Origin: Thioalkalivibrio nitratireducens DSM 14787
Lineage (GTDB): Bacteria; Pseudomonadota; Gammaproteobacteria; Ectothiorhodospirales; Ectothiorhodospiraceae
NCBI RefSeq assembly: GCF_000321415.2
Contig: NC_019902.2
Coordinates: 1,116,001 to 1,180,000, forward strand
Length of the DNA stretch: 64,000 bases
Direction of reading: 5' to 3'
In this document: positions 35,791 to 39,391 of the stretch, one piece after another
Numbering within the stretch: position 1 is the first letter of the stretch
Layout of the letters: the number at the start of each line of letters is the position of its first letter
Notes under the pieces: model-generated
What the model was told of the DNA's origin: nothing
The model's database searches: none
Seen by the model: the letters and a program-made list of their open reading frames with translations, nothing else
Program-made: the position numbers and the translations under genes

Positions 35791-37578
35791 ATGTGTGGGA
35801 TTGCGGGTGAGTTCGTCTGGGGCGACCGGCGCGCGGACGTGGATGCGGTCGCGCGGATGCTGCCCGCGCTGGCACGGCGGGGGCCGGATGCGGACGGTGT
35901 CTGGGCCGCGGGCCGGGTGGCGCTGGGGCACCGCCGGCTATCCATCCTGGATCTCTCGCAGCGTGCGCACCAGCCGATGTTCGACCCCGCAACCGGGCTC
36001 GCGCTGGTGTTCAACGGCGCGATCTACAATTTCCGTACGCTGCGCGCCGAACTGGAACGGCGCGGGCACCGCTTCTTCTCCACCGGCGATACCGAGACCA
36101 TCCTTCGGGGCTACGCGGAGTGGGGCGAGGCGGTGGTGGGCCGGCTGCACGGCATGTTCGCTTTCGCGCTGTTCGATTCCAGAAGCCAGAAGCTGCTGGT
36201 CGCGCGTGACCGCATGGGGATCAAGCCGCTCTACGTTGCGCGCTCGGACCACGGGATCCGGTTCGCTTCGAATACCCGGGCACTGCTGGACAGCGGAGGT
36301 GTCGATACCGCGCTGGATCCCGAGGCGCTGCATCTGCTGTTCTCGCTGCATGCGGTGGTACCCGCGCCGCGCACCGTGCTACGCGGGATCCGCAAGCTGC
36401 AGCCGGGGCATTACCTGCTGATCGAGGCCGACGGCCACGAACACCTGGAATGCTACTGGCGGCTCTGTGCGCGGCGCCCGGAACAGGGGGTCGACGACGA
36501 CGAATGGCGCGAACGCATCGAGGCCGGGCTGCGCCGGGCGGTCCGGCGGCGGCTGGAGGTGGCCGACGTGCCGGTGGGTGTACTGCTTTCGGGCGGACTC
36601 GACTCCAGCCTGCTGGTCGCGCTGGCGACCGAGGAGGGGGCGCAGAACCTGCGTACCTTCACCGTGGGCTTCGAGGATCAGCCGGAGGAGAAGGGCTCCG
36701 AGTTCGAGTATTCGGACCCGGTGGCCGAGCGCTATGCGACCGACCACCAGCGCACGCTGATTCCGAACAGCGAGGTGCTCCGCCGCTTGCCCGAGGCGGT
36801 GGCGGCGATGTCCGAGCCGATGTTCGGGCAGGATGCGGTGGCGTTCTACCTGCTCGCGGAGCAGGTCTCCCAGCACGTGAAGGTCGTGCAGTCGGGCCAG
36901 GGTGCGGACGAGGTGTTCGGGGGGTACTTCTGGTACCCGAAAATGGCCGAGGAGCGTTCGGGCGGCTGGACCGAGCGCTTTCGTAAACACTATTTCGACC
37001 GCGACGACCCGGAGATGCGCGAACTGCTCGCCCGGCCGCCGCAGGGCGACGTGACCGGCGACTGGCTGCACGCCGAACTGGCTGCACTGGAGACCGATCG
37101 CGCCGACAGCTTCATCGACGCGGTGCTGGCGCTCGATGTGACCACGCTGATCGTCGACGATCCGGTGAAGCGGGTCGACAACATGACCATGGCCTTCGGG
37201 CTCGAGGCCCGGGTGCCGTTCCTGGACCACGAACTGGTCGAGACCGCGGCAGCGATGCCGCCGCACCTGAAGCTCGGGGACGGTGGCAAGAAGGTACTGA
37301 AGCAGATCGCGCGTGGGCGGTTGCCGGACGCGGTGCTGGACCGGCCGAAGGGCTACTTCCCGGTGCCTGCGCTGAAGTACGTGCGCGGCGAGTTCCTGGA
37401 GTTCATGCGCGATATCCTCGGTTCGCAGGCGGCACGCGAGCGCGGCATCTACCGACCAGGTTACGTGCAGCGCCTGCTCGACGCGCCCGACCAGCACTTC
37501 ACGCGCATCCAGGGATCCAAGCTCTGGCATCTGGCGCTGCTCGAGTTCTGGCTGCAGACCCAGGTGGATACCGCCTGA
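35791..37578 (+). CDS. asnB: Asparagine synthase-like glutamine amidotransferase
   Basis: A 595-residue class II glutamine amidotransferase: Cys2 is the N-terminal nucleophile (MCGIAGEF), followed by an asparagine synthase domain with the PP-loop SGGLDSS near residue 269. The segment VKVVQSGQGADEVFGGYFWYP resembles the N-acetylglutaminylglutamine amide (NAGGN) amidotransferase subgroup more than ordinary AsnB, which would make it an osmolyte enzyme. The other genes of that NAGGN trio are not adjacent, so I keep the general name; the symbol asnB is tentative. Start ATG 35791 exposes Cys2 and follows a GGAGCGG site. Confidence 0.85.
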   Translation: MCGIAGEFVWGDRRADVDAVARMLPALARRGPDADGVWAAGRVALGHRRLSILDLSQRAHQPMFDPATGLALVFNGAIYNFRTLRAELERRGHRFFSTGDTETILRGYAEWGEAVVGRLHGMFAFALFDSRSQKLLVARDRMGIKPLYVARSDHGIRFASNTRALLDSGGVDTALDPEALHLLFSLHAVVPAPRTVLRGIRKLQPGHYLLIEADGHEHLECYWRLCARRPEQGVDDDEWRERIEAGLRRAVRRRLEVADVPVGVLLSGGLDSSLLVALATEEGAQNLRTFTVGFEDQPEEKGSEFEYSDPVAERYATDHQRTLIPNSEVLRRLPEAVAAMSEPMFGQDAVAFYLLAEQVSQHVKVVQSGQGADEVFGGYFWYPKMAEERSGGWTERFRKHYFDRDDPEMRELLARPPQGDVTGDWLHAELAALETDRADSFIDAVLALDVTTLIVDDPVKRVDNMTMAFGLEARVPFLDHELVETAAAMPPHLKLGDGGKKVLKQIARGRLPDAVLDRPKGYFPVPALKYVRGEFLEFMRDILGSQAARERGIYRPGYVQRLLDAPDQHFTRIQGSKLWHLALLEFWLQTQVDTA

Positions 37579-38036
37579 TACCGGGTGAACCGGCCGCCCG
37601 CCCGGTGCCACGGGTCAGCTCCCGGCACCTGTGTCGGGAGCGATTCATCCCGGCCGCGATCCGGACCGCCGGCCCCGGGCGTTTCCTGCGAGCATCCGTT
37701 GGCACGGATGCCGTTCCGTGCTCCGCGCGGGGAGCAGCCGTCACCCGCTCCCGCGTTCGTTGAGCCACGCCGTATTCGGGAGCATACTGCCAGAGGCCCG
37801 GGGGGCTGTCCGCCCCGGGCAGTGGGGCACGATTCGCGGACGCTGCCGGTGCCCGGAAGCGTCCGCGGTGTGATGCCTTTGGATTCGTGCCCCTATTGTC
37901 AGGACAGACGAGTCGAGGAGGTCGTATGGAAGAGCAACCGATCGGGTGCGCCCGGGTGTCGGGCTCGGTGTCCGATTCCCCGCTTCCCGAAGCGGGTGAT
38001 CCAGCCGAATCCATCCCATCACAGGAGGCAACGAGA
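37579..38036. other. Gene-free gap upstream of the peroxiredoxin
   Basis: This 458-base stretch between asnB and the peroxiredoxin holds no convincing gene. Near its end, ATG 37926 is preceded by GAGGAGGT and is in frame with the peroxiredoxin, so it could give a form extended by 37 residues. I see no clear promoter hexamers or hairpins in the rest. Confidence 0.6.
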
Positions 38037-38642
38037 ATGACTGCACGAGTCGGGCAGAAGGCCCCGGATTTCACCGCGCCGGCGTTTTACCAGGGCGGTT
38101 TTACGAACGTCAAGCTGTCGGATTTTTCCGGCAAGTGGGTGCTGCTCTGTTTCTACCCGGGTGATTTTACGTTTGTCTGAGCCACTGAGGTGTCGGCGGT
38201 CGCCGCGCAATATCAGGCATTGCAGGATCTGGGTGTTGAAGTCATTGCAGTCAGCGTGGACAGTCACTTCGTCCACAAGATCTGGAACGAACATGAATTG
38301 AGCAAGATGGTGGATGGGGGCATCCCGTTCCACATGGCGTCCGACCAGGCAGGGGATGTCGGACGTGCCTACGGCGTTTGGGACGAATCCCAGGGCATCG
38401 AGCTGCGGGGCCGTTTCATCATCGACCCCGACGGCGTGATTCAGGCGATGGAGGTGCTCACTCCCCCCGTCGGCCGTAAGCTCGCCGAGACGGTGCGCCA
38501 GGTGCAGGCCTACCAGGTCGTTCGTGCATCCGGCGGCAAGGAAGCGACGCCGGCGGGCTGGGAGCCCGGTAAGCCGACCCTGAAACCGGGGCCCGACCTG
38601 GTGGGCAGGGTCTGGGAGGTCTGGAATCCCTCGATGGAATGA
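38037..38642 (+). CDS. Selenocysteine-containing peroxiredoxin (AhpC/Prx type), TGA read as Sec
   Basis: The frame begins at ATG 38037, nine bases after AGGAGG, and encodes [15 protein letters not shown]..., typical of AhpC/Prx1-type peroxiredoxins. In the active site FTFVxATE, the peroxidatic Cys position (residue 48) is TGA at 38178-38180. The same frame then continues for another 153 codons with intact family features ([47 protein letters not shown]), ending at TGA 38640. Total 201 residues including Sec48. A bSECIS-like hairpin follows the TGA. Apart from U48, the only cysteine is C38; the usual resolving cysteine is replaced ([10 protein letters not shown]), so it would work as a one-Sec enzyme reduced by an external thiol. 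A nonsense-mutated pseudogene is the alternative, but the exact site and the intact downstream frame argue against it. Confidence 0.9.
38178..38218 (+). promoter_or_regulatory. UGA codon and bacterial SECIS-like hairpin
   Basis: Right after UGA 38178-38180 a hairpin can form: CTGA 38185-38188 with TCAG 38213-38216, GTG 38190-38192 with CGC 38206-38208 (one G-U pair), a bulged U at 38193, CGGC 38194-38197 with GCCG 38202-38205, and apical loop GGUC at 38198-38201. In E. coli fdhF mRNA, SelB recognition needs a bulged U17 and loop G23-U24 counted from the UGA; here the bulged U is position 16 and loop GU are 22-23, the same spacing shifted by one. This was folded by hand. Confidence 0.7.
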
Positions 38643-38655
38643 TCGGGAACCGAGT

Positions 38656-38698
38656 CCCCGCCGGGTCACGGGACGCAGTTGACCCGTGCCCGGCGGGG
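38656..38698 (+). terminator. Strong hairpin after the peroxiredoxin
   Basis: CCCCGCCGGG-T-CACGGG (38656-38672) pairs with CCCGTG-CCCGGCGGGG (38683-38698), with one bulged T and a ten-base loop. It starts 14 bases after the stop codon. There is no clear T-run after it, so it may end transcription inefficiently or stabilise the mRNA 3' end. Confidence 0.55.
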
Positions 38699-38737
38699 TA
38701 ACGTGACGGAACCGCACGTTCGCGCCTCTCGGGTCGG

Positions 38738-38889
38738 TAGGCGTAAGGCAGTGTCGTCCGCGGTTCGGTATTCGCACCGTCCCGGCGCTCGGGGCAACCC
38801 CGGCGTGGGAACAGCGGATGACGGCCTTCGGCCTTTTCCGCCCTACGCCTCTTTCATCATCGGGGGTGGCTGCCCGCGCCATGACAGTT
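38738..38889 (+). repeat. Dispersed repeat, family B, copy 2
   Basis: This copy matches 22081-22232 along its length. The left arm has diverged, while the right part is conserved, including the 57-base identical block at 38814-38870. It runs directly into the family C array. It fills the gap after the peroxiredoxin. Confidence 0.85.
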
Positions 38890-39391
38890 AGCGTGAAAAT
38901 ACGCCGCCCTAGAATCGTATGTCTCTGATTTATAATCGTATTTTCATCCTTCGGGGTGCCTCGCGGCCGAGGGCATGACAGTTAGCGTGAAAATGCAGCC
39001 ACGGAAGGACACGGAAATCACGGAAGATGAGACGGATCCAACCCCTTGTCCGTGTCTTTCCGTGCTTTCCGTGGCTCGTCTTTTCATCTTGCGGGGTGGC
39101 CGCTGGCCATGAAAGTTAGCGTGAAAATACAGCCACGGAAGAACACGGACAACACGGAAAATGACAGGTATTCAATATCTTGCTCAATTTCCGCGTGCTT
39201 CCGTGTCCGATTTTCATCCTTCGGGGTGCCTCACCCCCGAAGACATGATCGTTGGCGTGAAAATCCAGCCACGGAAGGACACGGAAATCACGGAAGATGA
39301 AACGGATCGAATCCTTTTTCCGTGTCTGTCCGTGCTTTCCGTGGCCCGCCTTTTCATCTTGCAGGGTGGCCGCTGGCCATGAAGCTTAGCC
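38881..39391. repeat. Family C repeat array (four units plus a remnant)
   Basis: Units begin with ATGAxxGTTxGCGTGAAAAT and end with TTTTCATCxTxCGGGGTG: 38881-38974 (short variant), 38975-39108, 39109-39244, 39245-39378, and a terminal remnant 39379-39391. The longer units (134-136 bases) contain CCACGGAAGGACACGGAAAT pairing with copies of TCCGTG...CCGTGG (for example 38999-39074), which would fold into long hairpins; the flanking TTTTCATC/GTGAAAAT also pair. The last remnant supplies the TAA stop of the lrp-like gene at 39386-39388. Confidence 0.85.

Follow-up and report, generated by a model that had tools for sequence, protein, structure and literature searches.

The selenocysteine (Sec) peroxiredoxin PrxU reportedly goes back to the work of Sohling et al. 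in 2001 on Eubacterium acidaminophilum, and this founding paper is said to number the Sec at about residue 47, as in a short form of the protein. Typical 2-Cys peroxiredoxins of the AhpC type (1we0, human Prx3) share the fold and the family motifs with the protein described here, but have Cys in place of Sec, and 1we0 carries a C-terminal resolving Cys. Human Prx4, which is among the fold matches of our model, has an N-terminal extension with a Cys; it uses Cys rather than Sec and has a C-terminal resolving Cys of its own. In the accessible parts of the literature, Sec peroxiredoxins are listed in a 2026 review (PMC13188914) and appear in the Sargasso Sea survey (PMC1088965) and in a 2006 survey (PMC1794560), and PMC4046663 uses the name PrxU. 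In-frame alternative initiation that gives two proteins from one frame, as we read prxU below, is described for bacterial N-terminal proteoform pairs (PMC11005335, PMC9430671); these are Salmonella genes and phage endolysins, and the accessible parts of the two papers name no selenoprotein or peroxiredoxin.

The PrxU of Peptoclostridium (Eubacterium) acidaminophilum resembles the protein studied here in its sequence (64.8% identity over 96% of the short query), in a UGA at the same codon, in a Cys ten residues before it, in an N-terminal tail (GCARP) and in an internal ATG behind AAGGAGGAG. It differs in carrying Ala, not Thr, at the C-terminal resolving position, and its host is a clostridium. 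The gene that we describe, from Thioalkalivibrio nitratireducens DSM 14787, is a further member of this known family (NCBIfam NF040737). From sequence comparison we put at about 0.96 the probability that it encodes a peroxiredoxin whose Sec, decoded via a hairpin, occupies the peroxidatic position and is resolved by a thiol, with translation starting at 37926 and probably at 38037 as well.

A prxU gene and its relatives

The window, a stretch of 64,000 nucleotides, holds the gene on its forward strand. The frame at 38037-38642 contains one internal TGA, at 38178-38180, and encodes 201 residues up to the terminal TGA at 38640-38642; the internal TGA is residue 48 of this short frame and stands in the context PGDFTFV-U-ATE. 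The short frame matches the Pfam families AhpC-TSA (2.4e-40), Redoxin (2.6e-22) and 1-cysPrx_C (1.8e-7), and its best solved relative is 1we0 (5.3e-45), whose peroxidatic Cys aligns with the window TGA. An earlier sequence-only reading of this DNA had described a single in-frame TGA at the peroxidatic codon of an intact peroxiredoxin frame, and both the re-read frame and the alignment bear this out. Its further statement that all later family features are kept holds for the family domains but not for the usual C-terminal resolving Cys: EVCPA of 1we0 is EATPA here, so that Thr stands where a typical 2-Cys (AhpC) enzyme has its Cys. The window protein reaches 192 bits with the AhpC model TIGR03137, below the cut-off of 272. 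An AlphaFold model (mean pLDDT 85.8) has a normal peroxiredoxin core, with human Prx3 (5jcg) as its best fold match.

The 201-residue protein that had been proposed from 38037 can be read as such, but the gene start lies earlier. An in-frame ATG at 37926, 37 codons (111 nt) before 38037 and preceded by the Shine-Dalgarno (SD) sequence AGGAGG at 37916-37921, adds 37 residues and gives a full protein of 238 residues (37926-38642) in which Sec is residue 85. The PrxU model NF040737 (peroxi_PrxU) is matched from position 35 by the short frame and from position 3 by the long frame, with scores of 372 and 380 bits, respectively, both over the equivalog cut-off of 270. Read from 37926, the protein covers model positions 3-232 of 233, and the N-terminal extension of NF040737 is thus present. 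The motif PxxxTxxU, as given in the accessible part of PMC13188914, takes the form PGDFTFVU in the window. The expectation that annotation would split such a gene or call it a pseudogene does not always hold, since the P. acidaminophilum record annotates prxU through the UGA. A scan of 37570-39000 found no sigma-70-type promoter, and Rfam at gathering score returned one tRNA in the whole window (tRNA-Leu by ARAGORN). Directly downstream of prxU, at 38869-39390, lies an intergenic repeat element made up of direct units (181 nt twice at 89%) with a 32-nt core in four copies and CACGGAA inverted repeats.

Relatives were collected by a contig scan with six search patterns, none of which covers the Sec codon or the tail; one of them, CFYPGDFT, contains the Cys at position -10 from Sec and favours it. 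The scan gave at least 582 relatives, and we took the best 80, a choice biased to close relatives (66-88% identical in the best segment). Of 120 loci, 96 matched across the Sec codon with an E value of at most 1e-10; the codon is TGA in 85 of them and TGC in 11. The 85 TGA loci form our first set: the best 80 of at least 582, two plasmid loci, the window and two related genomes. The plasmid loci, found by tblastn, are the P. acidaminophilum prxU and a Chloroflexota plasmid gene of 62.2% identity, both with TGA, and the two related genomes, one of the same genus and one of the same family, carry the same TGA gene at 92% and 83% identity. The 11 loci with TGC encode Cys peroxiredoxins, found in relatives and in the own genome, that share 38-43% identity with the query. 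A second set of 82 loci was reduced to 75 rows: L225, L228, L230 and L244 had no pattern match, and the duplicates L163, L193 and L198 and one of two copies in L234 were left out. It combines loci from among the best matches (L169-L198) with hand-picked ones that are mostly tail-less, short or Cys-type-looking (L207-L246), so its proportions, such as TGA at the Sec site in 64/75 and TGC or TGT in 11/75, are not rates.

In a sample of the class, only two of 369 genomes score over the PrxU cut-off, one of them the own genome; both genes have TGA, and the next match reaches 206 bits. None of 14 control genomes passes this cut-off. The Sec reading mainly corrects annotation: with it, the class gains a firm PrxU case whose machinery is complete. 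Among 96 related genomes, three have a high-identity PrxU: the own genome, one of 29 other genus members and one of 17 other family members. A selB over cut-off is present in nine of these 96, including all three with PrxU, which leaves six with selB and no PrxU. We searched 33 PrxU genomes, representing 33 of the 80 contig loci, and found a selB match in every one, over cut-off in 32. In a sample of the phylum to which L044 belongs (by title, an Anaerolineae MAG), 10/301 genomes pass; ten of their genes have TGA, and one, L168, is a Cys gene. For L097, a Desulfobacteraceae MAG, the sample of its phylum gives 129/395, most rows with one internal TGA, a count that does not always mean Sec: L219 is listed with one TGA, yet has TGT at the site. 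Since the family includes Cys forms (L168, L207) and six of the nine selB genomes among the relatives have no PrxU, Sec is not obligatory.

In a tree of the 85 core sequences, the window protein groups with its same-genus relative (support 100/98). The next group (95/89) contains sequences from Thiobacillus, Thauera, Hydrogenophilaceae, Burkholderiales and Marinobacter together with the same-family relative, and the enclosing set (99/97) is rich in Chloroflexota and Acidobacteriota. Horizontal transfer of prxU is likely.

Decoding of the internal UGA

We searched the genome, one contig of 4,002,350 bases, for the Sec machinery. A tRNA-Sec with anticodon TCA (ARAGORN) lies at 858719-858810 of this contig and scores 78.4 bits against an Rfam cut-off of 47, a cut-off that two ARAGORN tRNA-Ser genes also barely pass (47.6 and 47.3 bits) and that is passed in 5/14 control genomes. 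Adjoining it are selB (859077-860960; 460 bits, cut-off 242) and selA (861005-862336; 580 bits, cut-off 268), and selD is found at 853530-854459 (409 bits, cut-off 125). In the 14 control genomes, selB and selD are over cut-off in two each and selA in one. All four genes thus score over their cut-offs, and the absence of selB and tRNA-Sec from the complete genome, which the sequence-only reading had named as one outcome that would count against it, is not the case. A formate dehydrogenase-like frame near 902 kb (L200), with a TGA in RI-U-HAPTVASLAPTFGRGAM and a score below the TIGR01591 cut-off, is a second candidate Sec gene, so that prxU is probably not the only one in this genome.

In addition to the stand-alone selD, the contig has a 754-aa frame at about 2.477-2.480 Mb (L122, 296-2560) whose C-terminal part matches SelD (306 bits, over the TIGR00476 cut-off) and whose N-terminal part looks, by eye only, like an FAD/NAD oxidoreductase. 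Adjoining tRNA-Sec, the region L121 6489-10531 encodes a PhnE-type permease (225 bits, cut-off 217) and a substrate-binding protein that resembles the putative selenate ABC transporter model at 196 bits, below its cut-off of 250. A match to the group II intron domain RF00029 (51.8 bits) lies near the sel cluster at L121 3038-3137.

We compared the 85 first-set sequences behind the UGA, all of them different, without gaps, taking the U of UGA as position 0. The pair 17-26 is formed in 84/85 sequences by four pair types (GC 51, AU 27, CG 3, UA 3), the best of 500 shuffles reaching 63, and the pair 20-23 is likewise formed in 84/85 (GC 72, AU 12; best shuffle 77). The pairs 16-27, 18-25 and 19-24 are formed in 82-85 of 85 and hardly vary, and the lower stem (15-28 to 13-30) is formed in 60-62 of 85. 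Within the region, mutual information is highest for the position pairs 17-26, 14-29 and 20-23. Positions 17, 20, 23 and 26 fall on the third bases of codons, so that most of this covariation leaves the protein unchanged. In the window itself (38191-38208), the pairs 16-27 to 20-23 are intact around an apical GGUC, and those from 13-30 to 15-28 are not formed in register; the minimum-energy fold has a bulged U at position 15 instead. The GGUC loop and the bulged U presumably recall the SECIS of E. coli fdhF. Folded on its own, the window's UGA region is no stabler than its shuffles (z 0.27). With this single-sequence fold non-significant and the lower stem imperfect, the case for a predicted bacterial SECIS-type hairpin immediately downstream of the UGA, at 13-30 nt, rests on the covariation. 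SelB, the Sec-tRNA(UCA) and this hairpin would together decode the UGA as Sec85.

An ordinary Cys peroxiredoxin with a nonsense mutation, or with a miscalled TGC, could look much the same at this codon, given that TGC and TGA differ by one base and that the window hairpin alone is non-significant. Such an accident would have to recur identically in 84 further first-set loci, with mostly silent covariation behind the TGA and the Sec machinery in the genome, and in a protein with a -10 Cys that is absent from all 11 Cys-type peroxiredoxins compared; we consider its probability close to nil. As the gene belongs to a known selenoprotein family, the in-frame stop is recoding and not damage. The claim that a random nonsense mutation is improbable here agrees with TGA at this codon in 80/80 contig relatives (the best 80 of at least 582), and the call of a probable selenoprotein is supported by the machinery, the homologous TGA codons, the covarying hairpin and the PrxU equivalog score. 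A reassigned UGA was rejected by reasoning, since the frame has a single internal UGA and is itself closed by TGA, and a programmed frameshift was likewise rejected by reasoning.

Two candidate starts of translation

The 37-residue N-terminal tail of the window protein (37926-38036) carries a Cys at residue 8 (codon 37947-37949). A tail with such a Cys motif, mostly GCARP or GCARV (45/77), is found in 77/85 first-set members, and the Cys is present in 77/77 tailed members, which partly follows from the motif having been found by its Cys. Three assignments need comment: L107 is counted as tail-less though it apparently has a frame-shifted tail, L194 is counted as tail-less despite its motif because a further in-frame stop lies between tail and Sec, and L245, whose GCVSP was missed by the pattern, is counted as tailed by hand. 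In the tree, the tail-less L074, L076 and L077 group together next to a tailed sequence, which points to a probable loss of the tail there. The motif [GS]C[AGS][RK][PV][TS]G has no match elsewhere in the 85 first-set loci in six frames, and no partner protein sharing it is therefore seen in the flanks.

Translation is predicted to begin at 37926, and an SD of at least 4 nt precedes the long start in 75/77 tailed first-set members. In 545 close pairs, differences at third codon positions were compared with the mean of those at first and second positions; the excess is 2.5-fold for the motif, 1.2-fold for the linker and 4.5-fold for the core. The excess in the motif indicates selection at the protein level, and the tail is thus very probably translated. 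A Sec enzyme made from the short start only, with the tail region untranslated, would agree with the Sec numbering attributed to the 2001 paper, at about residue 47. This is very improbable in view of the tail frame being open in 77/85 members with its Cys in 77/77, the third-position excess of the motif over the linker, and the ATG with SD before the tail. For C. sticklandii, the accessible part of PMC3091704 moreover gives a protein of 240 residues with Sec at 84, which corresponds to the long form.

A second ribosome start at 38037, preceded by the SD sequence AGGAGG at 38023-38028, would give a short form without Cys8 (38037-38642), and its conservation suggests that it probably works too. 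In the first set, where we took as internal start the start codon 3-6 codons before the peroxiredoxin core with preference for ATG, such a codon is present in 85/85 members (78 ATG, 7 GTG). A match of at least 5 nt to TAAGGAGGT precedes it in 73/77 tailed members, vs 25/439 other ATGs in the genes. At the homologous site, which has an SD of its own, lies the plausible start of the tail-less L074-L077, L099, L113 and L118. In the second set, 41/75 rows are tailed, and all 41 have an internal ATG with an SD of at least 5 nt at the best-scoring candidate, a choice that favours high SD scores; 40 of the 41 have TGA, and the remaining one is L207.

The same pattern could arise if only the long start at 37926 is used and a conserved Lys-Glu...Met peptide brings the internal ATG and AAGGAG with it. 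Of the 69 tailed members with a GGAG, 68 have it in one and the same codon phase, as expected from a conserved K/Q-E pair, and the tail is part of the family model. A synonymous-shuffle test of SD strength goes in the right direction but is weak per gene (mean z -1.4; 10/77 at rank <=0.05), Lys-Glu codons being SD-like already. A peptide constraint does not account as readily for a start codon at the internal site in 85/85, nor for the choice among Glu codons: GAG outnumbers GAA by 93:27 at the SD site, against 397:520 in the rest of the genes, and by 57:20 even in genes that prefer GAA. The SD lies 4, 7 or 10 nt before the start in 76/77, a distance that thus changes by whole codons, and tail-less relatives begin at the internal site. 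We regard use of the long start only as rather unlikely. Both starts are conserved with ribosome-binding sites, and we favour, with reasonable though limited confidence, the use of both, which predicts a long and a short isoform. If both products are made, prxU would be a selenoprotein gene with an isoform pair that arises by internal initiation, conserved at loci that by their titles come from many phyla. The two conserved starts and the tail Cys of PrxU may be new, as they are not described in the literature found by a search of limited coverage.

Cysteines and resolution of the selenenic acid

By analogy with the family, the Sec selenolate would reduce a hydroperoxide and become a selenenic acid, which a thiol would then reduce. 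Besides Sec, the window protein has only two cysteines, Cys8 and Cys75 (codon 38148-38150). Since Thr replaces the C-terminal Cys that usually resolves, this role probably falls to thioredoxin itself, to Cys8 or to Cys75. In the first set, the C-terminal resolving position is T in 56, C in 19, M in 7 and A in 3 of the 85 proteins, and 78/85 have no further Cys beyond Sec, the tail Cys, Cys75 and this position. The Cys ten residues before Sec is present in 85/85 first-set members, a count that the pattern CFYPGDFT favours. In its position, Cys75 may be the counterpart of the buried Asp26 of thioredoxin.

The Cys at -10 accompanies the tail throughout, in 77/77 and 41/41 tailed proteins of the two sets, or 118/118 with kinship ignored. 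Tail-less proteins have it in 8/8 cases in the first set and in 10/34 in the second, the other 24 carrying Phe, Tyr, Val, Met or Leu; ten of these 34 second-set rows are Cys and not Sec forms. This constant association suggests that Cys8 and Cys75 act together, possibly in place of the C-terminal resolving Cys. The tail-less Sec peroxiredoxins from the phylum of L097 resemble the window protein in their UGA at the catalytic codon (24/34 tail-less second-set rows), and most pass the PrxU cut-off, with some below it. They differ from it in having no tail and in carrying Phe, Tyr, Met or Cys at -10, and many keep the resolving Cys. Six tail-less Sec rows (L216, L218, L220, L226, L227 and L229) combine Tyr at -10 with Thr at the resolving position, which shows that some members manage without either Cys and presumably rely on a thiol from outside the protein. 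Nor is Cys8 needed in every member, as L074-L077 show, which are Sec forms with no tail and with Thr at the resolving position.

In the AlphaFold model the tail is disordered (residues 17-35 at pLDDT <50), so that the model does not place Cys8 near Sec. We propose tentatively, and at less than even odds, that a linked pair of Cys8 and Cys75 resolves the selenenic acid, and that a dual-start gene retained across phyla would yield mixed oligomers of long chains, bearing a mobile Cys tail, and short chains in a ratio set at initiation. If true, this would explain in concrete terms how a Sec peroxiredoxin can complete its cycle when it lacks the usual resolving Cys. In the Cys form L207, the tail and the Cys at -10 are kept, the SECIS loop is lost, and the SD is weak and badly spaced. 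The genome of L207 also has a match with one TGA.
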